From Clostridia bacterium (GTDB taxonomy: Bacteria; Bacillota; Clostridia; Oscillospirales; Acutalibacteraceae), in contig JAFQOJ010000025.1 of assembly GCA_017403265.1 (NCBI GenBank), forward strand, positions 1 to 47,513: 47,513 bases of DNA, read 5' to 3'. Each line of letters begins with the position of its first letter. The first letter of the stretch is position 1. Of the stretch, positions 5,424 to 46,021 are shown one piece after another. Below the pieces are notes generated by a model that saw nothing but the letters and a program-made list of their open reading frames with translations, was not told where the DNA came from and made no database searches. Both the position numbers and the translations under genes were made by a program.

Positions 5424-6267
5424 TATTACAATGAAACTAAATGCAAACGATTTGATTTTGGCGGCACTTAAAGAGGATATCACCAGTGAGGATATCTCGA
5501 CTAATTCCGTAATGCCAAATTATCAGCTTGGCGAAGTGGAACTTATTTGCAAGGAAGATGGGGTCATTGCAGGTCTTGATGTATTTAAGCGTGTATTCCA
5601 ATTGCTTGACGAAAAAACGGAAGTGATATTTACCTGCGCTGATGGAGATACCGTTAAAAACGGACAAAAATTGGGATGTATTCGTGGTGATATACGGATT
5701 TTGCTTTCGGGCGAGAGAACAGCACTTAACTTTCTACAACGAATGAGCGGCATTGCAACCTATACTCGCACTATTGCCGATATGCTTAAAGGCAGTAATA
5801 CAAAACTTCTTGACACACGCAAAACCACACCTTGTATGCGTATTTTTGAAAAATATGCCGTCAAAGTCGGCGGTGGATACAATCACCGCTATAACCTAAG
5901 TGACGGTATTCTGCTAAAAGACAACCATATCGGTGCGGCAGGCGGTGTAAAAGAAGCTGTTAGAATGGCAAAAGAGTACGCTCCTTTTGTTCGTAAGATT
6001 GAAATTGAGGTTGAAAACCTCCAAATGCTTAAGGAAGCTCTTGAAGCAGGCGCAGATATTATAATGCTTGATAATATGAGCGTTGAAGATATGAAGGAAG
6101 CTGTAAAACTGTGTGCAGGTAAGGCAGAAACTGAGTGTAGCGGTAATGTTACAAAAGAAAATGTTGCAAAACTTGTAGATATTGGTGTAGACTATATTTC
6201 AAGTGGCGCACTTACACACTCTTCTCCAATATTGGATCTTTCTCTTAAAAATTTACACGCTGTATAA
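5416..6267 (+). CDS. nadC: Nicotinate-nucleotide pyrophosphorylase (carboxylating)
   Basis: This quinolinate phosphoribosyltransferase makes nicotinate mononucleotide from quinolinate and PRPP, with loss of CO2. Family motifs are SGERTALNFLQRMSGIAT (98-115), the substrate-binding DTRKTTP (133-139), GGGYNHRYNLSDGILLKDNH (152-171), EIEVEN and IIMLDNMS. The 283 residues are typical. The frame extends upstream to a TTG at 5395. I chose ATG 5416 because AAAGGAG (5399-5405, inside nadB) lies 10 bases before it. With nadA and nadB this completes the aspartate-to-NaMN route in one operon. Confidence 0.95.
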   Translation: MNNITMKLNANDLILAALKEDITSEDISTNSVMPNYQLGEVELICKEDGVIAGLDVFKRVFQLLDEKTEVIFTCADGDTVKNGQKLGCIRGDIRILLSGERTALNFLQRMSGIATYTRTIADMLKGSNTKLLDTRKTTPCMRIFEKYAVKVGGGYNHRYNLSDGILLKDNHIGAAGGVKEAVRMAKEYAPFVRKIEIEVENLQMLKEALEAGADIIMLDNMSVEDMKEAVKLCAGKAETECSGNVTKENVAKLVDIGVDYISSGALTHSSPILDLSLKNLHAV

Positions 6268-6280
6268 AAGGGGTGAAGAT

Positions 6281-6793
6281 ATGAAGGCGATTGACAGAAG
6301 AAAAGCCATTGCCAATCGGCTTTTGTCTGCAAATGAAGCTATTTCAGGAAGTGAACTTGCAAAGGAATTTGGTGTGTCCCGACAAATTATTGTACAGGAC
6401 ATTGCCACTCTAAAGGGTTCGGGCTATGATATTATTTCTACGCACAACGGATATATTATTCAAAAATCACCTTTTAAAGTACGTGTATTCAAACTACACC
6501 ACACAACAGAACAGACCGAGGATGAACTGAATACTATTGTTGACCTCGGCGGCACTGTTGTAGATGTTTTTGTATGTCATAAGGTATACGGTAAGATGGT
6601 AGCACCCTTAAATATCTTTTCCCGCCTTAATGTTAAACAATTCATCGAGGGAGTGCGAAGCGGAAAATCCTCTGAGCTAATGAATATTACAGGCGGATAC
6701 CATTATCATACAGTACGTGCTGACTCAGAGGAAATTTTAGATTCAATTGAAAACGCTCTTGAAAATAAAGGACTTATTGCGCCCAAAATATAG
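6281..6793 (+). CDS. niaR: NiaR-type transcriptional repressor of NAD biosynthesis
   Basis: The 170-residue protein has a winged-helix HTH (residues 5-60, SGSELAKEFGVSRQIIVQDI) and a C-terminal 3H domain (about 70-168). The 3H metal ligands are H74, E82, H141 and H143, with the same spacing as in the Thermotoga protein TM1602. The family senses nicotinic acid and represses NAD synthesis or niacin uptake genes. Being last in the nad operon implies autoregulation. The upstream frame runs into nadC, but ATG 6281 has the only good ribosome site (AAAGGGGTGA). The likely target is the dyad at the nadA promoter. Confidence 0.92.
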   Translation: MKAIDRRKAIANRLLSANEAISGSELAKEFGVSRQIIVQDIATLKGSGYDIISTHNGYIIQKSPFKVRVFKLHHTTEQTEDELNTIVDLGGTVVDVFVCHKVYGKMVAPLNIFSRLNVKQFIEGVRSGKSSELMNITGGYHYHTVRADSEEILDSIENALENKGLIAPKI

Positions 6794-6844
6794 TATTTTT
6801 TATTAAGTAATACACGTAAATTTTAATATAGCAATTAAACCGGC

Positions 6845-6864
6845 GAAGGTTCGAATTTCTTCGT
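6845..6864 (+). other. T-arm-like sequence between niaR and galU
   Basis: GGTTCGAATTTCTTCG repeats the T-arm core of tRNA-Arg (GGTTCGAATCCCTTCG, 1837-1852) with two mismatches, in direct orientation. No acceptor, anticodon or D arm is present. It is a decayed tRNA fragment or a chance match. Confidence 0.3.
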
Positions 6865-6883
6865 CAAGACAATCTCAAAAAGT

Positions 6884-6923
6884 AAAAGCAGATTTTCTAT
6901 TGTTTAGAAAATCTGCTTTTTAT
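6884..6923. terminator. Bidirectional terminator between niaR and galU
   Basis: A perfect 16-bp stem (6884-6899 with 6905-6920, loop TTGTT) has a T run on the plus side and an A run on the other. It can therefore end both the nad operon and the convergent galU operon. Confidence 0.9.
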
Positions 6924-7793
6924 TTATAATTCTTTTGCTAATTCTTTTATATATTCCCGTAATTCTTCCTTGGTTTCTGGGTGGTTAAGCGCAACTTCAA
7001 TATTAGCCTTTATAATACCGAACTTATTACCCATATCGTAACGGGTGCCACTGAAATCAACACCTGTCATACCCTTAGTTTTAGCAACCTCGCGCATTGC
7101 ATCTGTAAGCTGAAGCTCATTACCTGCGCCCAAGGGTGTACGCTCTAGGATATCAAAAATTTCGGGTTCTAAAACACATCTGCCTAAAATTGAGAAGTTA
7201 GAAAGCTTTTCTTCTAGCTTAGGCTTTTCAATCATATCGGTAACATTGTAGGTTTTATCGCCATTCTTTTCTACCGCTAAGGAACAATATTTTACTACTA
7301 AATGTTCGGGAACTTCTTTTATACCTACAACACTCTTGCCAAATGCTTCATAAGCATCAATCAACTCGCTAATTGCAGGAACTTCACCTATAATAACATC
7401 GTCACCGTAAAGCACCGCAAAAGGCTCGTCACCCACAAACTCGCGGGCTCTGAGTACCGCATCTCCAAGCCCCCTTGTTTCCTTTTGACGAATAAAATAG
7501 ATGTTCGCCATATTTGCTAAATCATCAAGCTCTTTTAAAGTGTCATACCTTTCACGCTTTAAAAGCATATTTTCAAGCTCAATAGAATGGTCAAAATGGT
7601 CTTCAATAATGCCTTTGCCACGGTTTGTTATGATTAAAATATCGGTAATTCCAGCCTTAACCGCTTCTTCAACTATATACTGAATTGCCGGTTTATCCAC
7701 TATTGGTAGCATCTCCTTAGGCATTGCCTTTGATGCCGGTAATACCCTTGTCCCAAGCCCTGCCGCAGGAATAATCGCCTTTTTGATTTTCAT
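6924..7793 (-). CDS. galU: UTP-glucose-1-phosphate uridylyltransferase
   Basis: The enzyme makes UDP-glucose from glucose-1-phosphate and UTP in the cytoplasm, feeding cell-wall and exopolysaccharide sugars and GalE. The 289 residues begin with the nucleotidyltransferase signature KKAIIPAAGLGTRVLPASKA, followed by PKEMLPIVDKPAIQYIVEEA. FAVLYGDDVI carries the metal-binding Asp pair, and EKPKLEE and GNELQLTDA follow. The ribosome site AAGAGGAG precedes the ATG. It is the last gene of a three-gene operon, 29 bases after the RING-type gene, and ends at the shared terminator. Confidence 0.96.
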   Translation of the reverse strand: MKIKKAIIPAAGLGTRVLPASKAMPKEMLPIVDKPAIQYIVEEAVKAGITDILIITNRGKGIIEDHFDHSIELENMLLKRERYDTLKELDDLANMANIYFIRQKETRGLGDAVLRAREFVGDEPFAVLYGDDVIIGEVPAISELIDAYEAFGKSVVGIKEVPEHLVVKYCSLAVEKNGDKTYNVTDMIEKPKLEEKLSNFSILGRCVLEPEIFDILERTPLGAGNELQLTDAMREVAKTKGMTGVDFSGTRYDMGNKFGIIKANIEVALNHPETKEELREYIKELAKEL

Positions 7794-15524: not shown

Positions 15525-15557
15525 AAAAACGGAATCTCTTTCGAGATTCCGTTTTTT
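15525..15557. terminator. Bidirectional terminator, radC / isomerase cluster
   Basis: AAAAACGGAATCTC pairs with GAGATTCCGTTTTTT around a 4-base loop. It has T runs on both strands and serves the convergent radC gene and the seven-gene minus-strand cluster. Confidence 0.92.
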
Positions 15558-15564
15558 GTTTAAA

Positions 15565-16374
15565 CTATAAAGTTTTAAGATAGTTGATACTTCTTTCGGC
15601 ACATTCAAGACGGGATAAACCTTCGGTAGGTTCGTCTTGTTCTACTACTACCCAACGGGTTCCGCTTTCTTCGCAAGCCTTCAAAATTTCGGGGAAATTC
15701 TGTACGCCTGCACCTACATTACGGAAAGCAAAGCTGTTTTTATCAGCCTTTTTACCGTCATCTTCTATACCAATAAGAGCATACATATTTTCGCTCTTTT
15801 GACCTACAAAGTCCTTAAGATGTACAATTTCGCATCTTCCGGCATATTTGCGGATATAATTAGCAGGATTTTCTCCACCAACATTTACCCAACAAGTATC
15901 AAGCTCGGTTTGAAGCTTATCTGCAGGAACTTCCTTGTAAAGAATGTCTAAAGCATATTCGCCGTCAATCTTTAAAAACTCAAAATCGTGGTTATGATAA
16001 GCTAATTTCATACCCAACTCATTAGCTTTAGTTCCTAACATTTTGGCGCCTTCTATAACCTCTGCAAATTTTTCGCCTGAAGGACGGTATTCCTCAGTTA
16101 AGTAAGGAATAACCACAAATTCACAGCCGATTTCGGCATAAGTCTTTAAAATATCGGGGTTTGACATCATATCAACAAAAGGTACATGCGCAGAAATAGG
16201 TGTTAGACCTATTTCTTTACATAAAGCCTTTACTTCTGCCGCGTTTTTGCCATAAAGACCGGCAAATTCAACACCGTCGTAACCCATAGCCTTAACCTTT
16301 TTTAAGGTGCCTTCAAAATCACTTTCTAAGCAGGTGCGTACTGAATAGAGCTGTAAAGCAATTGGAAATTTCAT
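15565..16374 (-). CDS. Sugar phosphate isomerase/epimerase family TIM barrel (A)
   Basis: The 269-residue protein belongs to the xylose-isomerase-like / AP-endonuclease-2 TIM-barrel family, whose members isomerise, epimerise or eliminate on sugars and keto-sugars with a divalent metal. It starts with FPIALQLYSVR. Putative metal ligands lie in YHNHDFEF, ELDTCWVNVGG, IVHLKDF and VVVEQDEP. An upstream in-frame ATG exists, but ATG 16374 has GAGG 8 bases before it and begins at the usual first strand. It is the last gene of the cluster. The substrate is unknown; a 3-keto-glycoside or inosose is plausible. Confidence 0.85.
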   Translation of the reverse strand: MKFPIALQLYSVRTCLESDFEGTLKKVKAMGYDGVEFAGLYGKNAAEVKALCKEIGLTPISAHVPFVDMMSNPDILKTYAEIGCEFVVIPYLTEEYRPSGEKFAEVIEGAKMLGTKANELGMKLAYHNHDFEFLKIDGEYALDILYKEVPADKLQTELDTCWVNVGGENPANYIRKYAGRCEIVHLKDFVGQKSENMYALIGIEDDGKKADKNSFAFRNVGAGVQNFPEILKACEESGTRWVVVEQDEPTEGLSRLECAERSINYLKTL

Positions 16375-16388
16375 TATTACTACCTCTA

Positions 16389-17108
16389 CTATTCTATTGT
16401 TTTTAAGTAATCGAAGCAAATTTTAACTTCTTCGATACCGCTTGGTTTTAAGGTTTCACTTTCAACTACCATTCGCTTACCGTTAGCTATTGCCCACTCG
16501 CGAACTTCCTTAATTGGAGCAAAGCCCTGACCTAGCGGTGTGCCTCTGCCTTCACCGGTACCGTCTTTTAAGTGGATAAAGGTTACTCTATCCTTAACAC
16601 GTTCTAAAAGGGCTATGGGGTCTTTCATGCCTGCAAAAGCCCAATAAACGTCAACCTCCAGCTGTATGTCGGTACGGTAAATTAACTGGTCATAAACATG
16701 TGAACCGTCAGGATTCATAATAAATTCACGTGCGTGGTTATGGAAAGCAAGTGTAATACCGTGTTTGGCAAGCTTTTTATTGAGCACATTAACATTTTCA
16801 ACAAAGGCATCAATCTTATCCTGAGAAGATAAATCATGACCCGGGATAATGTAATGCTTATTACCAATTTTTTTATTGTATTCTACCACACCGTCGAAAT
16901 CTTGGAGCAAAAGGTCAAGACCTGAATGGATACTTGAAACCTCAAGACCATATTTATCAAGCATAGCACGAACTTCTTCGGCGCTATGGTCAAAAAAGCC
17001 TGCAAATTCAACCTGCTTGTAGCCTATTTCGGCAACCTGCTTTAAAGCTTCATCTAAGCTTTTACCTGCAAGGTCACGTACTGAGTACATTTGTACAGAA
17101 TAATCCAT
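16389..17108 (-). CDS. Sugar phosphate isomerase/epimerase family TIM barrel (B)
   Basis: This is a paralogue of protein A (YSVQMYSVRDLAGKSLDEAL at the N-terminus) with 239 residues, near the lower size limit. Ligand-bearing strands are LAFHNHAREF, LEVDVYWAF, TFIHLKDGTGEGRGTPLGQG and MVVESETL. The HLKDG-T-GRGTPLGQG loop is longer and glycine-rich compared with A. GGAGG lies upstream of the ATG. It is 3 bases after the oxidoreductase gene at 17112-18269 and 14 bases before gene A, so all three are co-translated. Confidence 0.85.
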   Translation of the reverse strand: MDYSVQMYSVRDLAGKSLDEALKQVAEIGYKQVEFAGFFDHSAEEVRAMLDKYGLEVSSIHSGLDLLLQDFDGVVEYNKKIGNKHYIIPGHDLSSQDKIDAFVENVNVLNKKLAKHGITLAFHNHAREFIMNPDGSHVYDQLIYRTDIQLEVDVYWAFAGMKDPIALLERVKDRVTFIHLKDGTGEGRGTPLGQGFAPIKEVREWAIANGKRMVVESETLKPSGIEEVKICFDYLKTIE

Positions 17109-17111
17109 TTA

Positions 17112-18269
17112 TTAAACCTCCGGAATTTCGATTTCTACTTCCTTACCTAACTTAGCAGAACGAACAAGGCCATCAATAATAGCCTGGTTGATAACGATTT
17201 CGCTTGAAGGAACAGTAGCTTTTCCGCCTTCCTTAACTGCATCTACGAAAGAACGCATCTTCTTGAAGAAGAAGTCAGCAGCGGGTTTCATCGGAACTTG
17301 GTATTCTACCATTTCATCGCATAATGTCTTGTAAATGGTAAGCGGAGTCTTAAATTCACCATTCCAACAGTCAGTTGAAGGAATTCTAAGACCACCCTTA
17401 GTACCCAAGATAAGAGCGTCACCGCAGGTATTCATATGCATTGCCCAAGAAATACGGAAGTCAAGCATAATTCCGCCTTCTAAACGAACAAAGCCTGCTG
17501 CGAAGTCATCAACGCCGAATTTTTCAGCATATTCGGGATGATTTGGATAATATGCAGGGTCTTTACCGAAGAAATCAGAAATATAACCAGTAGCGGTTAA
17601 TGGCTTCGGATAACCAACTGCATTAAGAAGCATATCTAAAGAATAGCAACCGATATCGCCCAATGCACCGATACCACCGGTTTCTTTTTCGATAAATGTT
17701 GTACCGAAAGGAGTCGGGATACCGCGGCGGCGACCACCACCTGTTTGAATGTAGTAAATGTCACCAAGTTCGCCAGACTGAACGATTTTCTTAATCATTT
17801 GCATATTTTCACTCATTCTGGGTTGGAAACCGATAGTTAAAATCTTACCGGATTTCTTTTCAGCCTTCATAACTTCGATAGCTTCATCTAAAGTTACGGT
17901 AAAGGGCTTTTCAAGCATTACATGAAGACCTGCTTCAAGTGCGTGAATAGCACAAGGAGCGTGCTGAGTATTGTAGGTACAAATAGAAACAGCATCTAAG
18001 TCCTTTTCAGCTGCAATAAGAGCTTCATCGCTTTCATAGTAGCGAGCATTCTCGATACCGAATCTTTGCGCAAATCTCTCTGCTTTGCCTGGGATTAAGT
18101 CAGCCAATGCAACGATTTCAACATCATCCATCTTAAGAAGTGCTCTTGCATGATTTTCTGCAATCCAACCGGTACCAATAATACCAATTTTCACCTTTTT
18201 AGAAGTGTCGATAACCTTTTCTTCTTCTTGGATTTTTTCGAATGCGTCTAAGTCTGCTATTTTTGCCAT
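17112..18269 (-). CDS. Gfo/Idh/MocA-family oxidoreductase (1)
   Basis: This 385-residue NAD(P)-dependent dehydrogenase has a Rossmann motif VKIGIIGTGWIAENHARAL after a 25-residue N-terminal extension. The catalytic-lysine motif is EKPFTVTLDEAIEVM, followed by the alpha/beta substrate domain (GGIGALGDIGCYSLDMLLNAVG). Family members oxidise a sugar or polyol hydroxyl to a ketone. The GGIGALGDIGCYSLD segment supplies the likely active-site Asp and nearby polar residue. AGGAGGA precedes the ATG. Codon choice is more ordered than in neighbouring genes, suggesting strong expression. Confidence 0.9.
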   Translation of the reverse strand: MAKIADLDAFEKIQEEEKVIDTSKKVKIGIIGTGWIAENHARALLKMDDVEIVALADLIPGKAERFAQRFGIENARYYESDEALIAAEKDLDAVSICTYNTQHAPCAIHALEAGLHVMLEKPFTVTLDEAIEVMKAEKKSGKILTIGFQPRMSENMQMIKKIVQSGELGDIYYIQTGGGRRRGIPTPFGTTFIEKETGGIGALGDIGCYSLDMLLNAVGYPKPLTATGYISDFFGKDPAYYPNHPEYAEKFGVDDFAAGFVRLEGGIMLDFRISWAMHMNTCGDALILGTKGGLRIPSTDCWNGEFKTPLTIYKTLCDEMVEYQVPMKPAADFFFKKMRSFVDAVKEGGKATVPSSEIVINQAIIDGLVRSAKLGKEVEIEIPEV

Positions 18270-18301
18270 TTTTAGTTCCTCCTAAAAATTTTTTTATTTT
18301 T

Positions 18302-19216
18302 TTAAATTACAAACTGACGTAAATAACGACAGCTTAGTTTAACAGAATCAAGTATCTTTTCTTTCGAACTTTCGAAAGCCTTATCTTCAACCTCAATACA
18401 AACGAAACTATCGTAACCTATATCGGTTAAAGCAGAAATATATTTACCCCAGTTAACATCACCAAGACCTGGTAATTTAGGGCTCATATATTCAAGCGGA
18501 TAAGCCATAACACCAACATCATTCAATTTATCGGGATACACCTTTATATCCTTACAGTGAACGTGGAAAATCTTATCCTTAAACTCATAAAGCGGTTTTA
18601 TGTAATCAATTTGTTGCCAAATAAAGTGGCTGGGGTCATAGTTAATACCAAAGTTATCACTTGGAATAAGTTCAAACATTTTTCTCCAAAGCTTAGGAGT
18701 AGTAAATAAGTTTTGTCCGCCGGGCCATTGATCCTTACCAAAGAGCATTGGGCAGTTTTCGATAGCAATTTTAACGCCCTTTTCTTCAGCCAACTTAATA
18801 ATTTCGGGCCAAATTTCCATAAAAAGTTCAAGGTTTTCTTCAACTGTTTTGGTTTGGTCGCGACCAATAAAGGTTGTCACCATATTAACACCTAAAAGCG
18901 CGCTCATATTGATAACCTTTTTAAGATGGTCGATATTCTTTTGGCGCTTTTCTAAGTCTCCATCCATTGCATTAGGATAGAAAGCCAAAGAAGAAATTTC
19001 TACCGATTTTTTAGCGCAGTAGTCTTTAACATACGCGATGTATTCTTCGCTTGTGTTTTCAACATCAATATGGCTTACACCTGCGTATCTTCTTTCTGCC
19101 TTTCCTTGTGGCCAACAAGCAACCTCTACACAACTACAACCGTTTGCGGAAACATCATCTATCATTTCCTCAAAGGTAAAGCCGTCATAAATTGCACTTA
19201 CGATACCTAATTTCAT
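18302..19216 (-). CDS. Sugar phosphate isomerase/epimerase family TIM barrel (C)
   Basis: The 304-residue member is of a different subgroup from A and B: KLGIVSAIYDGFTFEEMIDD at the start, EVACWPQGKAERRYAG, then the metal strands IAIENCPM, FGINYDPSHFIWQ, IFHVHCKDI and FVCIEVED. The ENCP/DPSHF pattern is that of isomerases annotated near inositol and 3-keto-sugar genes. The ribosome site AAAGGGG precedes the ATG. It sits between two oxidoreductase genes with gaps of 14 and 32 bases. Confidence 0.88.
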   Translation of the reverse strand: MKLGIVSAIYDGFTFEEMIDDVSANGCSCVEVACWPQGKAERRYAGVSHIDVENTSEEYIAYVKDYCAKKSVEISSLAFYPNAMDGDLEKRQKNIDHLKKVINMSALLGVNMVTTFIGRDQTKTVEENLELFMEIWPEIIKLAEEKGVKIAIENCPMLFGKDQWPGGQNLFTTPKLWRKMFELIPSDNFGINYDPSHFIWQQIDYIKPLYEFKDKIFHVHCKDIKVYPDKLNDVGVMAYPLEYMSPKLPGLGDVNWGKYISALTDIGYDSFVCIEVEDKAFESSKEKILDSVKLSCRYLRQFVI

Positions 19217-19230
19217 AAATAAACCCCTTT

Positions 19231-20217
19231 CTAATTTTTTGGATATTTAATTTCGGCATCCAGTTTTATTAAATCCATAGTTTTGTGTACACTACGGGTT
19301 AAATTACAAACATTTTTATAATCTGAAAGATTTTCCTCATATCTTAAAATGTAATCAGCAAAGCGCTTTGCTTCGCCGCTCATAAGTTCTGCCTTTGAAA
19401 CCGTACCAAAGACCTCTTGCTTTTTGCCGTCTTTAATAAGGTAAACATCCGTATATTGCGAAATTTTGCCTATTAAAAGCGTTCCGTTGTCACCTATAAT
19501 CTCACTACCGTTTACACTTTCACAGGTTTTCGCATAGGTTAAAACCGCCGAAAAATCACCATAATTTAAAATAGCACTTCCAAGCCCATCTGCGCCGTTA
19601 TAAAGAAAATTAGCTTGTGCCTTTACCTCTTTTGGCTCGCCCAATAAATCGAGCGCCCCATAAACACAGTAAACACCTATATCCATAAGGCAACCCGCCT
19701 TTAAGGACATATCGAAAATGTTTTGTTGCTTTCCTTCAAGAAAACTATCAAGCCGTGACGAGCGCTGACAAAAATCAATCTTAGCTGCTCTTATTTTTCC
19801 AATACTCGCAAGCGCTTGCTTAACCTTGCTGTAATGGGCTACATGGCGTGGGATTATAGCCTCAAGATAAATAAGCTTTTTTCGGTTAGCATATTCCAAA
19901 AGTTCTTTATACTCTTGGCTATTTGTTACAATTGGCTTTTCACACAAAACGTGTATACCGTTTTCTAAAAAAAGTTTACTTTGCTTATAATGAAAAGCGT
20001 TAGGCGAAGAAATATAAACCGCATCTAGAAATCCGCTTTTTGCCATTTCGTTTAAGTCACAAAAAGCTTTGTCACAGCCATGCTCTTCAGCAAACGCTAA
20101 GGCGTTATCATAATCTCTTGAATAAACCGCCGAAAGCATAAACTCGCCTGTTAAGTTTGCACCACCTAAAAAGCTACGGCAAATAAAGCTTGTGCCTACA
20201 GTACCAAGCCTTATCAT
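19231..20217 (-). CDS. Gfo/Idh/MocA-family oxidoreductase (2)
   Basis: The 328-residue protein opens with IRLGTVGTSFICRSFLGGA (the Rossmann loop is GTVGTSFI rather than GxGxxG). EKPIVTNSQEYKELLEYA follows, then the GCLMDIGVYCVYGALDLLG segment. It resembles the trans-1,2-dihydrobenzene-1,2-diol dehydrogenase/glucose-fructose oxidoreductase subgroup. Its ATG overlaps the stop of oxidoreductase 3 (ATGA, 4 bases), so the two are coupled and may act as successive or partner dehydrogenases. Substrate unknown. Confidence 0.88.
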   Translation of the reverse strand: MIRLGTVGTSFICRSFLGGANLTGEFMLSAVYSRDYDNALAFAEEHGCDKAFCDLNEMAKSGFLDAVYISSPNAFHYKQSKLFLENGIHVLCEKPIVTNSQEYKELLEYANRKKLIYLEAIIPRHVAHYSKVKQALASIGKIRAAKIDFCQRSSRLDSFLEGKQQNIFDMSLKAGCLMDIGVYCVYGALDLLGEPKEVKAQANFLYNGADGLGSAILNYGDFSAVLTYAKTCESVNGSEIIGDNGTLLIGKISQYTDVYLIKDGKKQEVFGTVSKAELMSGEAKRFADYILRYEENLSDYKNVCNLTRSVHKTMDLIKLDAEIKYPKN

Positions 20218-21257
20218 ATATCAACTTTTAAAGTCTGCTTATCTTGGGCAGACTTAAATGCCGCTTCCATAACACCAAGTACACGACGAACTTCACAGTT
20301 TTTGATTAACTGCTCACATTCACCGTCAATAGCGGCACAGAAATTGCGATAAAAATTATGCACATCACTTATTGGGCGCTCAATCTCATAGCTATCAAGC
20401 GTTAAATGGTCGCGCGGAGCCATTGTCTTTGTGATACCTGCAGCATTTTGTACAGGGGTAACATCCTTTTCAATCCAACGGGTAAGCTTTGCCACCTTAG
20501 CCTTTTGTTGCCAATCGGAGAGATGAAGACTGCCTTCTTTACACTGCATATAAAAACGCGGCATAGCTATAAAGTTATATGTACCAACTTCAACATAAGC
20601 GGTTTTTCCGCTCTGGAAACCTAATTCCAAACGGAAACCGTCGTCAACTTCTTCATTGGTGTAGTGTGTGGTGTTGCAGTTTACCGTAACAATCTTTTCG
20701 GTAATTAACTGAAGCATTTGGTCAATTAAATGCACACCCCAGTCAAGAATCATACCTCCGCCGGGTTCCTTGTGGCAACGCCAGTCACTCGGTATTCCGC
20801 GCGAACCGTGAATTCTTGATTCCACCCTTAAAACTTCACCTATCTCGCCGCTCTCGATTACCGATTTTGTAGCCAAAAAGTCTACATCCCAGCGTCTATT
20901 CTGGTGAACCGAAAGCTTTTTGCCTGATTCGTTTTGCGCTTCTACCATACGGTCAAATTCTTCTACCGATAAAGCAACGGGTTTTTCACAAATTACATTG
21001 TGGCCGCTTTTCAAAGCGTTTACAACCAAATCCTCATGTACATCGTTAGGAGTAGCAACAACAACAATATCTACATTCTTATCGGCGAAAATTGCTTCAT
21101 TAGATTCGTAAACAAAGATTCCGTTATCCTTTGCGGCAGCTCTGCGTTCTTCTCTAATATCATAAATACCAACAAGCTCTGTTACATCACTTTTTAAAAC
21201 CTGTGTACAGTGCCAAGCGCCCTGTCCACCATAGCCAATAACTGCAACTTTTTTCAA
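20214..21257 (-). CDS. Gfo/Idh/MocA-family oxidoreductase (3)
   Basis: The 347-residue protein has the Rossmann motif VAVIGYGGQGAWHCTQVL (4-21), the lysine motif EKPVALSVEEFDRMV and a substrate-domain segment GGGMILDWGVHLIDQML. It starts with TTG; a GGAGGA ribosome site lies 6 bases upstream, inside the last codons of the ThuA-like gene, so translation is coupled. It is the second gene of the operon. It is of the classic family size, and the substrate hydroxyl cannot be deduced. Confidence 0.88.
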   Translation of the reverse strand: MKKVAVIGYGGQGAWHCTQVLKSDVTELVGIYDIREERRAAAKDNGIFVYESNEAIFADKNVDIVVVATPNDVHEDLVVNALKSGHNVICEKPVALSVEEFDRMVEAQNESGKKLSVHQNRRWDVDFLATKSVIESGEIGEVLRVESRIHGSRGIPSDWRCHKEPGGGMILDWGVHLIDQMLQLITEKIVTVNCNTTHYTNEEVDDGFRLELGFQSGKTAYVEVGTYNFIAMPRFYMQCKEGSLHLSDWQQKAKVAKLTRWIEKDVTPVQNAAGITKTMAPRDHLTLDSYEIERPISDVHNFYRNFCAAIDGECEQLIKNCEVRRVLGVMEAAFKSAQDKQTLKVDI

Positions 21258-21259
21258 TT

Positions 21260-21970
21260 TTAGTCCTCCAAAGGCTTTTTAACGTGCGGGCAGCCCATTT
21301 TCACACGGTAGTCCGGTGCTGCCCAGTTTATTGCGTTCTTTATAATCTTAATAATCTCGGGGTTATAATATACGGGATAGGTTTCGTGACCGGGTTGGAA
21401 ATAAAAAATCCTTCCGTTTTCACGCTTATAGCAACAACCCGAACGAATTACTTCGCCACCTTCAAAGCTTCCGATAAATACAAGCTCTTGGGGTTCGGGA
21501 ATTGAAAAAGGCTCACCGTAAGTTTCTTCATTATCGATAACAACAAACCTACCCAAATCTTTAGCTATTGGGTGCGACGGCTTACAAACCCATAAAAGCT
21601 CGCGGTCGCCATTTTCACGCCAGGTAAGGTTACAGTTAGTACCCATCAAAAGCTTAAAAGGTTTAGAATGATGGCCAGAGTGTAAAACCACAAGCCCCAT
21701 CCCTTCTAAGACTGCCTGTTGTACCAAAACAGCCACTTCGTCGGGAACTTCTTGGTGTTTCATGTGTCCCCACCACAAAAGCACATCGGTGTTTTGCAAC
21801 TTTTCTTCGGTGATTTCATTTACCGTTTCAAGTGTTACGGTTTCAACCGAAAACTCATCACACAGTGCTTGCTTTAGTGCTATGTGTATTCCGTCAGGAT
21901 ACACCTTTGACGCTTGATTGTCATTTTGCCGTTCATGATAAAATTCGTTATAAATCAAAACTTTTTTCAT
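21260..21970 (-). CDS. ThuA-like protein
   Basis: The 236-residue protein has the class I glutamine-amidotransferase-like fold of ThuA: KKVLIYNEFYHER at the first strand, VLLWWGHMKHQEVPDEV, GLVVLHSGHHSKPFK, FSIPEPQELVFIGSFEGG and RIFYFQPGHETYPVYYNPEI. There is no nucleophilic Cys at the elbow (LVVLHSGHHS), as expected for ThuA rather than true amidotransferases. In rhizobia ThuA acts with the Gfo/Idh enzyme ThuB on 3-keto-trehalose and related sugars. As first gene of the cluster it supports a keto-sugar pathway. AAAGGCGG precedes the ATG. Confidence 0.85.
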   Translation of the reverse strand: MKKVLIYNEFYHERQNDNQASKVYPDGIHIALKQALCDEFSVETVTLETVNEITEEKLQNTDVLLWWGHMKHQEVPDEVAVLVQQAVLEGMGLVVLHSGHHSKPFKLLMGTNCNLTWRENGDRELLWVCKPSHPIAKDLGRFVVIDNEETYGEPFSIPEPQELVFIGSFEGGEVIRSGCCYKRENGRIFYFQPGHETYPVYYNPEIIKIIKNAINWAAPDYRVKMGCPHVKKPLED

Positions 21971-22019
21971 AAAAAGCCGCCTTTTTGTTCAAAAATACCG
22001 ATTATTTAAAAGAATTCGA

Positions 22020-22091
22020 TTGTCTACCTATCATTATTGTATAATTTTTCATATAAATATACAAGTCATTTATATTTACATTAGTAGACAA
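22020..22091. promoter_or_regulatory. Inverted TTGTCTAC / GTAGACAA pair, candidate AraC operator
   Basis: TTGTCTAC (22020-22027) and its exact complement GTAGACAA (22084-22091) lie in the intergenic region between the ThuA cluster and the AraC gene. Their centres are 64 bp apart, close to six helical turns. One site lies next to the start of the cluster transcript; the other is 16 bp upstream of the araC -35 box. Binding by the adjacent AraC protein is inferred. Confidence 0.5.
22036..22064 (-). promoter_or_regulatory. Promoter of the ThuA/oxidoreductase cluster
   Basis: On the minus strand, TTGTAT (22059-22064), 17-bp spacer, TACAAT (22036-22041), giving a leader of about 60 bases. Confidence 0.6.
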
Positions 22092-22107
22092 ATGTTGCGA
22101 TTTTTTG

Positions 22108-22136
22108 TTGCAAAGTAATTAAAAGTATGATATACT
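22108..22136 (+). promoter_or_regulatory. Promoter of the divergent AraC gene
   Basis: TTGCAA (22108-22113), 17-bp spacer, TATACT (22131-22136). Confidence 0.7.
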
Positions 22137-22157
22137 CTAAATAAGGCGGTGAGATTT

Positions 22158-22934
22158 TTGAAACAAGCACTTTTTCAAAGCAAAAAAAAGGATTTTGAGA
22201 TAATGCCAACTAACGCTTTATCCCCAACCCCTCATTTTCACAACCAAATTGAACTTGTTTATGTTATAAGCGGGCAGACGGTAGCTTTTGCCGACCAAAA
22301 GAAAATTGTTACAAAAGCAGGCGAGCTGTTTGTTGCTTTTCCCAATCAAATACATTATTACGAGAAGACCGTCATAGGTAGATATATTGTTATTATTTTT
22401 TCACCTGAGCTAATTTACGGTATGGAGGATATACTTTATAACAACATTCCAAAATTAAATTTGCTAAGTGAAAGCAAAATGCGTGATTTTGCAAATATAA
22501 TATTGAACATTGTAAACGCAGGCGGTGATTTTTCGCACACCGTAAGAGTAGGACTCATGAATCAGCTTTTAGCTGGTATTTTGCCCGAATTCGAGCTTAT
22601 GCCGCGTATCAAAACCAATAACACAACCTTGCAAAGCGTGCTTAATTACTGCACCAAAAACTTTTCGAACGACCTTACTTTAGATATTTTGGCTGAGGAT
22701 TTACACATAAGCAAATTCCATATTTCACATTTGCTAAATCAAAAATTAGGCATAAGCTTTAGCGCTTATTTAAATAATATTCGTGTACATAAGGCATGTT
22801 CTTTGCTAAACAACAGCCAAAACAAGATTTCGGATATATCGGAAGAAGTGGGATTTGGCTCTATCCGCTCCTTTAACCGCGCCTTTAAAAGCGTTATGAA
22901 TATGACGCCAATAGAATACCGAAACCAGATTTAA
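22158..22934 (+). CDS. AraC-family regulator of the oxidoreductase cluster
   Basis: The 258-residue protein has an N-terminal cupin-type sensor (PHFHNQIELVYVISGQTVAF, a metal- or sugar-sensing beta barrel) and a C-terminal double HTH (LTLDILAEDLHISKFHISHLL; KISDISEEVGFGSIRSFNRAFKSVMNMTPIEYR). A GTG at 22149 is in frame but overlaps the ribosome site. TTG 22158, 8 bases after AAGGCGG, is the better start. It is divergently transcribed from the ThuA cluster, so it most likely activates it in response to the sugar. Confidence 0.9.
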   Translation: MKQALFQSKKKDFEIMPTNALSPTPHFHNQIELVYVISGQTVAFADQKKIVTKAGELFVAFPNQIHYYEKTVIGRYIVIIFSPELIYGMEDILYNNIPKLNLLSESKMRDFANIILNIVNAGGDFSHTVRVGLMNQLLAGILPEFELMPRIKTNNTTLQSVLNYCTKNFSNDLTLDILAEDLHISKFHISHLLNQKLGISFSAYLNNIRVHKACSLLNNSQNKISDISEEVGFGSIRSFNRAFKSVMNMTPIEYRNQI

Positions 22935-35496: not shown

Positions 35497-36840
35497 ATGG
35501 AAAATATTAAAATCAATTTTAGTAAACCCGTAGGACCTATGAAGCCAATGCATGCTGTTAATAACGGTCCGTTAGCCAAAAGCGTTAGAGCAACCGATAA
35601 CTTTGACCTTTATGCCGCTGCAGGCTTCCCTTATGCCCGTAACCACGATGCATCCTTTTATTCCGGTTATGGCGGCGAGCATACCGTAGATGTGCATAGA
35701 ATTTTTAAAAATTTTGAGAGGGACGAAAACGACCCTGCTTCATATATGTTCGCTTCAACTGATAAATATGTTAAAAATACAATTGATGCAGGCACTAAAG
35801 TCTTCTACCGTTTAGGCGCTAGTATTGAACACGGTCAGAAGTGGGGTACATTCCCACCCAAAGATTTTGCAAAATGGGCAAGGATTTGCGAGCATATTAT
35901 TAGACACTATACTGAAGGCTGGGCAGACGGCTTTAATTACGATATTGAGTATTGGGAAATTTGGAACGAGCCCGAGTGTGTAAATGCTGACGGTTCAAAC
36001 CCCTGTTGGCAGGGAACTCCTGAACAGTTTATCGAGTTTTATACCATTGTAGCGTCACATTTGAAAAGCTGCTTCCCACACCTTAAAATAGGCGGCCCCG
36101 CATTTACTTCACCTTGGAGAAATAAATTTAAAAGAGATTTCTTAAAGAATGTTAAAGAAAACAACGTTCCGCTTGACTTCTATTCATACCATTGCTACGC
36201 TGCAGCACCTATTGGCATTTATGAAGCAGTTATTGAAGGCGAAAAAGCTTTGGCAGAATATGACCTCCAGAGCACCGAAACCATTTTAAACGAATGGAAC
36301 TATGTTAAGGGTTGGCGCGGTGACGATTGGAAAGCTACTCTTGAAGGCGAGCAAGGACTTTTGGGTTCGGCTTTCACAGCCTCTGCTATGAGCCTTTGTC
36401 AGTATTCGTCCTTAGGTATGCTTATGTACTATGAGGCACGTCCATGTAGCATGAGCGGAATATTTGATACCGATATGCCGTGGAAGCCCCGCAAGTCATA
36501 TTATTCATTTAAAATGTTCAGTGAACTTTATAAATTAGGCACCGCTGTAGAGCTTTCGAGCGATAGCAAAACAGTATTTGGCTGCGCTGCAACTAATGAT
36601 GAGAAGTGTGCTGTTATGTTCTCTCACTTCAGCGCTGACGAGAATGCTGCCCCCGAAACTGTAAAGGTTGATATGAGCGGCTTTAGTTGCGAAAACGGTG
36701 TTAAGGCGCAGTATTATTTAATTGATGAAGAACACAACCTTGGGCTTGTAAAAGAGGAAGTTCTTACAGGTGATTCATTTGCCGCAACGGTTGAATTACC
36801 ACTTTATTCTTCTTGTCTTATAATGCTTGAAAAGAACTAA
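35497..36840 (+). CDS. GH39-like glycoside hydrolase (clan GH-A), cytoplasmic
   Basis: The 447-residue retaining glycosidase has the GH39 pattern: the acid/base Glu in YWEIWNEPE (N157-E158) and the probable nucleophile E266 in TILNEWNYV. A TIM barrel precedes a C-terminal beta-sandwich (about 350-447). GH39 members are beta-xylosidases or iduronidases. No signal peptide is present, so it acts on imported oligosaccharides. Subtype cannot be assigned. The gene has its own promoter and terminator and is not in an operon with a transporter here. AGGTGA is the ribosome site. Confidence 0.85.
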   Translation: MENIKINFSKPVGPMKPMHAVNNGPLAKSVRATDNFDLYAAAGFPYARNHDASFYSGYGGEHTVDVHRIFKNFERDENDPASYMFASTDKYVKNTIDAGTKVFYRLGASIEHGQKWGTFPPKDFAKWARICEHIIRHYTEGWADGFNYDIEYWEIWNEPECVNADGSNPCWQGTPEQFIEFYTIVASHLKSCFPHLKIGGPAFTSPWRNKFKRDFLKNVKENNVPLDFYSYHCYAAAPIGIYEAVIEGEKALAEYDLQSTETILNEWNYVKGWRGDDWKATLEGEQGLLGSAFTASAMSLCQYSSLGMLMYYEARPCSMSGIFDTDMPWKPRKSYYSFKMFSELYKLGTAVELSSDSKTVFGCAATNDEKCAVMFSHFSADENAAPETVKVDMSGFSCENGVKAQYYLIDEEHNLGLVKEEVLTGDSFAATVELPLYSSCLIMLEKN

Positions 36841-42118: not shown

Positions 42119-43375
42119 TTACTTTTCAACATTCATCATTGTACCGATAAAGAACGGAATATTGTTTTCACAATCTATAAGCATATAAACAAACGGTCTG
42201 TCAAGGTAAACTTCCTTCGGTTCCTGTGGCTCAGCAAAAAAATTCTCCATTATGACAGCCGTAGCGGCTCCTGCCTTAGTTCCCTTTTCGCCAACAGAAA
42301 TATAGGTTTTGTGATACACTTTTTCAATAAAAATATTTCCATTGGAAGATGTGCCCAACGATGAAAATTCCGCATTGTTGTAGTCAAACGCCAACGGCAT
42401 TCCCATAGTCTTTAAGATCTCCGCCATTTCCACCGTATACTCGGCTTCAAATTTAGGGATTGAAGTATAAACAGTAGCGTATTGCGGATTTGCAAGCAGT
42501 GCGTTAAGCGCTTTACCGTCAAGCGAGGCGACATAATCAGATACGCTTACATCCTTTTTTGGAAGCATTGCGGCGAAAGCGTACTTGCCGTCTTTATAAT
42601 ATTTTATGAAACCTGTTGCATTATCATCTTCAAGATAAACATCTTCGGTACTGTTCATAAACTGTGCCTCTTGCTTTGTTCCGTCTTCTTTAGTAAACTT
42701 TCCGTCTTCAACCTGATGGTATTCATAAATTTCCGACCATTCCGCTTCAAATGCAAGAGCATTCACAAGAATCATAACTGCAGTAGGCGAAATTTCATTC
42801 AAAATTTCAGGAATCATCTCATCAGTTTTTTCTTTCACCCAATTGTTTATATCTGTACAAGTACGATTATCAAAGGGTGCTTTATAAATATCAGCTCCGT
42901 AATAATCGGCATTGGTCTGTAAAAAATTCTTGTCAACTGTAAAACGCTCGGCTTGAGTAAACCAAACAGAATTAGCAAGCTTTAACTTGTATTTGTCACC
43001 CTGCGGTAAATTTTTCATATAACTGTAAAGATACATATTAAGGTCTTCGGTTTTCATACCCAAAACCTTTTCCATTTGCTGTAAAGTTTCATTCTCGGCG
43101 CCGTTTACTGTCATTGCCAACGCGCGAAGCACCGACAATGGAGAAACAAGCGTATTTCCCCCGCCTTGTTCACTTGCTTTAAATAGACGAATTGCAAAAT
43201 CGGTAACATCGGCATTATGTAAGTTAAGGTCATCTATAACATTCACATTATTGGGCTTTATGCCTTTCATCAAGTCTTCCGCTTTGGCAGTCATAGTACA
43301 ACCGGTCAGGTTAACTGCCATTGCGCATACTAAAATCAAGCTTAAAATCACTAAACCAATATGTCTTTTTTTCAT
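42119..43375 (-). CDS. Serpin, predicted surface lipoprotein
   Basis: The 418-residue protein is a serine-protease inhibitor of the serpin family, exported by a lipoprotein signal peptide (lipobox NLTGC, Cys26). Core motifs: NTLVSPLSVLRALAMTVNGA, LANSVWF, MILVNALAFEAEW, the hinge EKGTKAGAATAV (363-374) and DRPFVYMLIDCENNIPFFIGTM. By serpin numbering the scissile bond falls near F379-F380, so chymotrypsin- or elastase-like targets are likely. The hinge has the small residues an inhibitory loop needs. AGGAGG lies 7 bases before ATG 43375; longer in-frame starts are less favoured. Gut Clostridia serpins that inhibit host proteases are known from Eubacterium siraeum. Confidence 0.93.
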   Translation of the reverse strand: MKKRHIGLVILSLILVCAMAVNLTGCTMTAKAEDLMKGIKPNNVNVIDDLNLHNADVTDFAIRLFKASEQGGGNTLVSPLSVLRALAMTVNGAENETLQQMEKVLGMKTEDLNMYLYSYMKNLPQGDKYKLKLANSVWFTQAERFTVDKNFLQTNADYYGADIYKAPFDNRTCTDINNWVKEKTDEMIPEILNEISPTAVMILVNALAFEAEWSEIYEYHQVEDGKFTKEDGTKQEAQFMNSTEDVYLEDDNATGFIKYYKDGKYAFAAMLPKKDVSVSDYVASLDGKALNALLANPQYATVYTSIPKFEAEYTVEMAEILKTMGMPLAFDYNNAEFSSLGTSSNGNIFIEKVYHKTYISVGEKGTKAGAATAVIMENFFAEPQEPKEVYLDRPFVYMLIDCENNIPFFIGTMMNVEK

Positions 43376-43425
43376 TGCCATTCCTCCTAACAATTGCAAA
43401 GCATTCAAGTGTCCGCTTTTAAATA

Positions 43426-45067: not shown

Positions 45068-46021
45068 TTAAATCCCAAGTACTGCTGCACCGATAATTCC
45101 GGCATCGTTACCAAGCTCGGCGATCTTAATTTCGGTGAATTTTGTCTTAGTGTCTGCGCCGTAAACTTCCTTCCAAATTTCCTTTTTAAGCGGAATTAAA
45201 AGGTTATCGCCCTCATTGCAAACGCCACCGCCGATACAAAGCACCTCGGGATCGAAAATGTTAATCATATTAGCAAGACCGCAAGCAAGATACTTAATAT
45301 ACTCGTCTACAACCTTTTGACCTGCTTTATCGCCTTCTTTTGCGGCATTAAAAGCAGTGCGTCCGCTAACCTTTGAGAGATCTCCATCCACCATTTTCCA
45401 CATAGAAGTCTCTTTATTAGCCTGCATTTCATCCTTGGTCATATTGATAAGACCTGTAGCCGAGCTATAGGCTTCAAAACAACCCTTACGTCCGCAAGAA
45501 CAAGCTCTGCCACCCATTTCAATTACAGTATGGCCAAGCTCTGCGCCGCAATAAGAGAAGCCCGAATAAAGCTTACCGTCTATTACAATACCGCCGCCAA
45601 CACCGGTGCCCAAGGTAATCATAATAACGTCCTTAGCGCCTTTTCCGGCGCCCGCCCTAGCCTCAGCCAAAGCAGCTGCATTAGCATCGTTTTCCAAAAA
45701 CACCTTTGTTAAAGGTGTGCGTTTAATAAGTTCATTTGCCATGGGGTAGTTTGTCAAATTTATATTGTTAGCATAACAAACATATCCCTTTGCAGGGTCA
45801 ATAGAGCCTGGTGCAGCTATGCCTGCAGATTTAACTTCCGAAAAGCTTACGCCTGCACGCTCTACAACAGATATACACAAAGCCGCCATATCGTCCATAA
45901 TTGCATCTATCGGACGTGATGCGCCTGTGGGAACGCTATCCTTAAACACAATTTTTAAATTCTCATCAACAAGACCTACGGCTATGTTTGTTCCGCCGAG
46001 GTCAATACCTAAATAATACAT
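45068..46021 (-). CDS. ROK-family glucokinase
   Basis: The 317-residue sugar kinase phosphorylates glucose (or a related hexose) with ATP. It has the phosphate-binding GIDLGGTNIAVG (5-16), the catalytic D112 in ENDANAAALAEA, the ATP motif LGTGVGGGIVIDG and the ROK zinc site: H164 with C174, C176 and C181 in GHTVIEMGGRACSCGRKGCF. The N-terminus has no HTH, so it is an enzyme, not a ROK repressor. GGTGAT precedes the ATG. It is the first gene of the operon with the PRTase-like gene and is divergent from nagA. Confidence 0.93.
   Translation of the reverse strand: MYYLGIDLGGTNIAVGLVDENLKIVFKDSVPTGASRPIDAIMDDMAALCISVVERAGVSFSEVKSAGIAAPGSIDPAKGYVCYANNINLTNYPMANELIKRTPLTKVFLENDANAAALAEARAGAGKGAKDVIMITLGTGVGGGIVIDGKLYSGFSYCGAELGHTVIEMGGRACSCGRKGCFEAYSSATGLINMTKDEMQANKETSMWKMVDGDLSKVSGRTAFNAAKEGDKAGQKVVDEYIKYLACGLANMINIFDPEVLCIGGGVCNEGDNLLIPLKKEIWKEVYGADTKTKFTEIKIAELGNDAGIIGAAVLGI

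Follow-up and report, generated by a model that had tools for sequence, protein, structure and literature searches.

A probable AraC-switched operon for glycosidase-free hydrolysis of beta-glucosides in a Clostridia bacterium

Here we analyse a stretch of 47,513 nucleotides from a Clostridia bacterium of the Acutalibacteraceae (contig JAFQOJ010000025.1, assembly GCA_017403265.1), hereafter the window, in which seven minus-strand genes face a gene for an AraC-family regulator. Because sequence, fold and neighbourhood evidence all point in that direction, we consider it probable that these genes form an AraC-switched operon by which beta-glucosides are, in net terms, hydrolysed with no glycosidase involved; the same evidence supports the central proposal of a first-pass annotation made from the DNA alone, i.e., that a glycoside is oxidised, cleaved and reduced. 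The chemistry is already known, matching published pathways of oxidation, elimination, hydration and reduction, a kind of glycoside cleavage that has only recently been recognised beside that by ordinary glycosidases; the arrangement is new, and no published report of this operon was found in a literature search. If the reading is true, Clostridia of herbivore guts cleave plant beta-glucosides by a route missed in glycosidase-based annotation. Sheep, goat, water deer, cattle, water buffalo and horse appear in the record titles of the core loci described below.

The first-pass annotation had described seven tightly packed genes opposite an AraC gene, and the coordinates, spacings and families were all borne out. 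All eight open reading frames (ORFs) were present, each with a family assignment above the Pfam cut-off, i.e., three Gfo/Idh/MocA enzymes (GFOs), three AP_endonuc_2 TIM barrels, one ThuA and one AraC. The labels T1 to T3 and GA to GC were coined in this analysis, and the seven genes run in the order ThuA, GC, GB, T3, GA, T2, T1:

15565..16374, minus strand: T1, TIM barrel, probable 3-keto-beta-glucoside 1,2-lyase (O-glycoside beta-eliminase)
16389..17108, minus strand: T2, shorter TIM barrel, probable second lyase of T1 type
17112..18269, minus strand: GA, Gfo/Idh/MocA, candidate glycoside 3-dehydrogenase
18302..19216, minus strand: T3, TIM barrel, probable 2-hydroxy-3-keto-glucal hydratase
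19231..20217, minus strand: GB, Gfo/Idh/MocA, possible ketoreductase
20214..21257, minus strand: GC, Gfo/Idh/MocA, candidate 3-keto-glucose reductase or glycoside oxidoreductase of the shared core
21260..21970, minus strand: ThuA-like protein (PF06283, 1t0b)
22158..22934, plus strand: AraC-family regulator (PF12833, 1.3e-21)

The genes are separated by gaps of 2 (ThuA-GC), 14 (GB-T3), 32 (T3-GA), 3 (GA-T2) and 14 bases (T2-T1), and GC and GB overlap by 4. The likeliest start of T1 is ATG 16374, where its orthologues begin, and not TTG 16419; GC starts at TTG 21257. For AraC, TTG 22158, which is preceded by GGCGGTGAG, is more likely than GTG 22149 (read by eye).

We infer a route of four steps, following the scheme of oxidation, elimination, hydration and reduction given in PMC10628242 and PMC7676230. 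GA, perhaps GC, would oxidise C3 of the glucosyl unit, after which T1 (and T2), with the help of a divalent metal and with a histidine as base, would abstract H2 so that the aglycone leaves by beta-elimination. The resulting 2-hydroxy-3-keto-glucal would be hydrated by T3 to 3-keto-glucose, which GC and/or GB would reduce to glucose; GA is the candidate oxidant and GC and GB are the candidate reductants, a division of roles that we propose tentatively. A ping-pong cycle is also possible, in which 3-keto-glucose re-oxidises bound NADH. According to PMC11239390, a DgpA keeps its NAD(H) bound and returns to the oxidised state by reaction with 3-oxo-glucose; if GA or GC acts like this DgpA, the pathway would be redox-neutral.

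The cleavage step would fall to T1 and T2, which look like lyases of one type. The metal ligands of the beta-eliminase AtOGE (His132, Asp163, His189 and Glu233) and its catalytic His134 were all aligned in the T1 profile, and H127, H129, D159 and H185 were invariant in 18 of 18 sequences, T2 included, with the position of AtOGE Glu233 clear in T1 and shifted in the T2 alignment. Among the matches listed, the folds closest to the T1 model were those of the known 3-keto-beta-glucopyranoside-1,2-lyases AL1 and BT1 from Alistipes and Bacteroides (PDB 8tcd, 8tcr, 8tct), at only 27–31% identity; the C-deglycosidase alpha subunit and AtHYD were not recognised among the best 50 T1 fold matches, from which no conclusion is drawn. 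T2 is 31% identical to T1, lacks its loop after strand 7, retains the HNH motif and matched 8tcs/8tcd (E 4-5e-19) and 8bvk (E 3.3e-16). The first-pass annotation had argued from triple redundancy to a multi-substrate route. This argument is weakened, because T1 and T2 are lyase-like and T3 is hydratase-like, so that the three barrels are not redundant, and because the fetched loci held only one close relative of T2 elsewhere (L041, 54%), which occupies T1's place; what stands is that having two lyases may broaden the choice of substrates.

T3 is a probable 2-hydroxy-3-keto-glucal hydratase. Its closest fold among characterised enzymes was that of the hydratase AtHYD; AtOGE was not recognised among the T3 fold matches listed, and no conclusion is drawn from this either. 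Orthologues of T3 (> 600 bits) were present in 15 of 70 genus genomes, the source genome counted.

A scan with T3 returned 48 loci, of which 22 (L040 to L061) have a T3 with 74% identity or more and are termed core loci; L040, L052, L055 and L056 were judged to be the same contigs as L022, L027, L026 and L024. The set ThuA-GC-GB-T3-GA-T1 was complete in seven core loci (L040, L045, L048, L051, L052, L055 and L056), and the gene order is therefore not due to chance. The same order with ThuA cut was found in L053, GC-GB-T3-GA-T1 was retained in L049 and L058, and L047 and L054 held this run with GC cut by the contig end (in L054, GB was visible only by profile). Several incomplete core loci end at a contig boundary; L044 and L050 are short loci, and all that resembles T1 in L057 is an incomplete stretch scoring 84 bits.

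Lyases and C-deglycosidase beta subunits were counted across the 48 loci using profiles built from the fetched proteins. A full T1- or T2-type lyase (> 400 bits) occurred in 15 loci and the beta subunit in eight (L062, L063, L066, L067, L069, L071, L073 and L078; hereafter C-type loci), three of which (L067, L069 and L073) were confirmed with the Pfam model of this subunit, PF19906 ('DUF6379'). No locus had both, L063 also having a distant T1-like protein (67 bits), and 25 loci, some of them short or distant, had neither. The beta subunit and T3 share one same-strand gene run in L062, L063, L067, L069 and L073, and lie 4–10 kb apart in L066, L071 and L078; T3 of the eight C-type loci is 65–71% identical to that of the window. 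Since lyase and beta subunit never co-occur, and kin of T3 and GC are present in C-type loci, T3 and GC seem to be what these systems share and the lyase what varies between them. If so, O- versus C-glycoside use would be predictable from sequence, by the lyase cassette that adjoins the shared core. A fuller proposal, which we put forward tentatively and consider somewhat less probable than its failure, is a modular platform for glycoside breakdown in gut anaerobes, with a fixed GA-T3-GC core that would oxidise, hydrate and reduce, a redox loop closed through 3-keto-glucose, swappable lyase cassettes (T1/T2 for O-glycosides, DgpBC for C-glycosides), its own AraC operator, and ThuA as a further 3-keto-glycoside-processing enzyme.

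The relatedness of GA, GC and T3 to proteins of C-deglycosidase loci would also fit deglycosylation of C-glycosides of the Dgp/Dfg type, with T1 or T2 in place of the C-deglycosidase. This seems very unlikely, and we rejected it, as the beta subunit was not found: in agreement with the first-pass annotation, which had noted no DUF6379 partner, PF19906 gave no match in the source genome (1.70 Mb, 74 contigs), where absences are provisional because the assembly is 87% complete, and exceeded the cut-off in none of the 70 genus genomes. The only sub-cut-off genus match was one of 18.8 bits in a 1904-aa frame of G005; control genomes gave no match either, and the same model scored 127 bits on a fetched homologue. 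T1, moreover, resembles AtOGE, which PMC10628242 reports as O-glycoside-specific.

Among the GFOs, GA matched DgpA 7xr9 (E 3.3e-44), GB matched 2ho5/4iq0 (E 2.3e-40), and GC matched 3e18 (E 7e-93) and DgpA2 9m37 (E 2.8e-52). The DgpA structures 7xr9 and 9m3d carry an Asp-x-Gly-x-His motif, presumably the catalytic position, and GC has it as DWGVH. A quick tree with long branches was built from 77 GFOs in ORFs of 300–420 aa, from which we use only the GC, core-GA and GB clades; the length filter dropped five GFOs (L047, L050, L054 and two in L078), the GA-like GFO of L078 among them. Window-type GC fell into one clade (Shimodaira-Hasegawa-like approximate likelihood ratio test support 100) together with GFOs from four C-type loci and from two others, and DWGVH was present in 22 of 22 members of this clade. 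GA formed its own clade (support 100). No GB counterpart above 150 bits was found in loci L062 to L087.

The ThuA-like protein scored 108.6 bits with PF06283 (cut-off 33.4) and matched 1t0b at E 1.7e-80, and in L030 a GFO, a T1-like barrel (28%) and ThuA lie in a row. ThuA was located within 1.5 kb of a same-strand GFO in 10 of 18 ThuA loci of relatives, which would suit a scheme with ThuA as a main enzyme, in which an anhydrosugar (levoglucosan-type) or an alpha-disaccharide (trehalose or maltose, ThuAB-type) is used via 3-keto intermediates. The same four-step logic is described for levoglucosan (PMC7676230), and thuAB is linked to maltose in Paenibacillus (PMC4765114). However, the levoglucosan dehydrogenase model NF052479 gave only 82, 35 and 81 bits for GA, GB and GC against a cut-off of 650, so far below it that the levoglucosan reading was rejected; AtOGE is described as beta-specific in PMC10628242; and ThuA was missing from the flanks retrieved for L041, L046, L049 and L058, loci that do have T1 or T2. 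We regard this scheme as unlikely. If the beta-glucoside route is true, it places a ThuA subgroup in a defined chemical setting.

Several observations weigh against the beta-glucoside route. The proposed pathway leaves ThuA and GB without a step. GA, which is approximately 30% identical to DgpA-like proteins, has Tyr where those have His (DIG[CSA]Y in 19 of 19 sequences). His also stands there in the eight GA-like GFOs that the tree includes from C-type loci, so GA has diverged at what is presumably a catalytic position. T3 is present without a T1/T2-type lyase in the fetched flanks of L042, L043, L059 and L060, in the first two as GC-T3-GA; the small computed barrier for cleaving 3-oxo-O-glycosides given in PMC11239390 may explain loci without a lyase. 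There is no transporter within the operon, the two MFS_2-type transporters elsewhere in the genome having no visible tie to it, and the genome holds no second exact copy of the operator described below.

The remaining points of this kind concern inositol catabolism, in which the TIM barrels would be inosose dehydratase or isomerases and the GFOs inositol dehydrogenases. For several proteins IolE and IolG ranked with the top NCBIfam models, and IolE structures ranked above AtOGE by Z score in the T1 fold list (25.6 and 24.0, AtOGE being the shorter chain). The single-sequence match of T3 to AtHYD was weak, and other barrels scored at least as well (E 6e-4, compared with 1e-6 for 3wqo and 9e-6 for IolE 3cny), and with a T3 profile IolE scored much like AtHYD (E 1e-6 vs 6e-7). 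The IolE, IolG and IolO models nevertheless fell far below their NCBIfam cut-offs and IolD was not found, and we rejected this reading. The first-pass annotation had named clear inositol-pathway matches as evidence that would overturn its proposal, and no such matches emerged. We therefore consider inositol catabolism highly improbable.

The operon also appears to have a switch and an end of its own:

15525..15556, minus strand: hairpin with U-rich tail just downstream of T1, likely operon terminator
22036..22066, minus strand: putative operon promoter, ACTTG and -10-like TACAAT at a fixed distance from the upstream site
22085..22098, minus strand: putative AraC-type operator GCAACATTTGTCTA, a single occurrence in the genome, conserved upstream in related loci

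The hairpin has a folding energy of −20.1 kcal/mol (z −7.5), and none of 200 shuffles was equally stable. The 12-mer CAAYATTTGKCT occurred at most once per locus across 97 loci. Of the 18 core loci with enough sequence, 11 carry it no more than 400 bases upstream of the operon's first gene, and a twelfth (L051) has it just inside an ORF seemingly called too early; it was not found in the 400 bases upstream in the remaining six, nor in any of 15 other T3 loci tested. ACTTG or GCTTG followed by a -10-like TANNAT stood at fixed distances (positions 32 and 57) in 12 of 14 aligned sequences, two of which are near-identical. The exact 14-mer GCAAYATTTGKCTA, searched in 12 of the 15 T3-bearing genus genomes, was present once in eight and absent from four, compared with five matches for a reversed control pattern. 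All eight matches lie at this operon: six adjoin ThuA, and those of G070 and G086 were assigned by their 2–3 kb distance and orientation to T3. A pattern with a 12–15 base gap had no match in the 12 genomes because the gap is 16 in most sequences. A scan of the window allowing one mismatch gave one match (0.64 expected), which alone proves nothing, and the case for the operator therefore rests on position and conservation. A simple promoter scan missed both this promoter and the hairpin, and the numbers that it listed were little higher than in shuffles (25 vs 19.7 and 10 vs 6.9). In 14 of the 22 core loci a homologue of AraC (40–51% identity) lies on one side or the other of the operon. The operator-like site looks dedicated to this operon, and the adjacent AraC is most simply its owner and would bind it.

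Among known systems, the AtOGE/AtHYD operon of Agrobacterium tumefaciens (PMC10628242) shares beta-eliminase and hydratase TIM barrels, a Gfo reductase and the four-step logic, but its first oxidation is carried out by the flavoenzyme GlycDH, whereas all oxidoreductases of the window operon are GFOs, and the latter adds ThuA and an AraC switch. The Dgp/Dfg operons of gut Bacillota (PMC8563793, PMC11170127) have in common with it a DgpA-kind Gfo oxidoreductase, and relatives of T3 and GC occur in loci with C-deglycosidase; the window operon differs in having no detected DgpB, in its OGE-type lyases and in the Tyr of GA. The levoglucosan pathway LgdA-B1-B2-C of Bacillus smithii (PMC7676230) performs the four reactions with four enzymes, with a dehydrogenase unlike the window GFOs by the model score above. 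ThuA/ThuB disaccharide use resembles the operon in having a ThuA family member beside Gfo genes; in the window, the 1t0b-like ThuA belongs to a bigger gene set that also encodes probable lyases and a probable hydratase.

As the first-pass annotation had stated, the operon contains no kinase or glycosidase. Elsewhere in the window there are genes for a ROK kinase (45068-46021) and, directly downstream of one for a class II fructose-bisphosphate aldolase, for a GH39-like protein (35497-36840). In L059 a two-domain hexokinase with Hexokinase_1 and Hexokinase_2 models (5949-7238) lies directly behind the T3 orthologue, and ROK-type kinases (cluster c13, one scanned) occur in four of the C-type loci, L066, L067, L069 and L073; both would fit a free hexose product. 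Pfam searches of 40 chosen neighbouring proteins (four sets of ten, one mostly from C-type loci) revealed no partner recurring across the sampled core loci: rhamnose isomerase, spore-germination, LepA, ABC/ECF and serpin neighbours look unrelated, and GH2, GHL10, GH65, GH116, GH3, GH95 and apiosidase genes were each near single loci only.

A large AraC-type regulator in L067 (4811-7228), the only member scanned, is fused to a GH39-type domain; it has relatives in L062, L066, L069, L071, L073 and L078, and each of these seven loci also encodes the C-deglycosidase beta subunit. Serpins are a protease inhibitor family best known from eukaryotes; the window encodes one at 42119-43408 with a lipoprotein-like start (by eye), and another adjoins T3 in L060 (11072-12334). 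The source genome also has a second AraC-flanked cluster (L098, G000:C68, 2741-10895), in which three Gfo/Idh/MocA genes and a single TIM-barrel gene precede genes for a radical SAM protein and for a glycyl radical enzyme resembling pyruvate formate-lyase.

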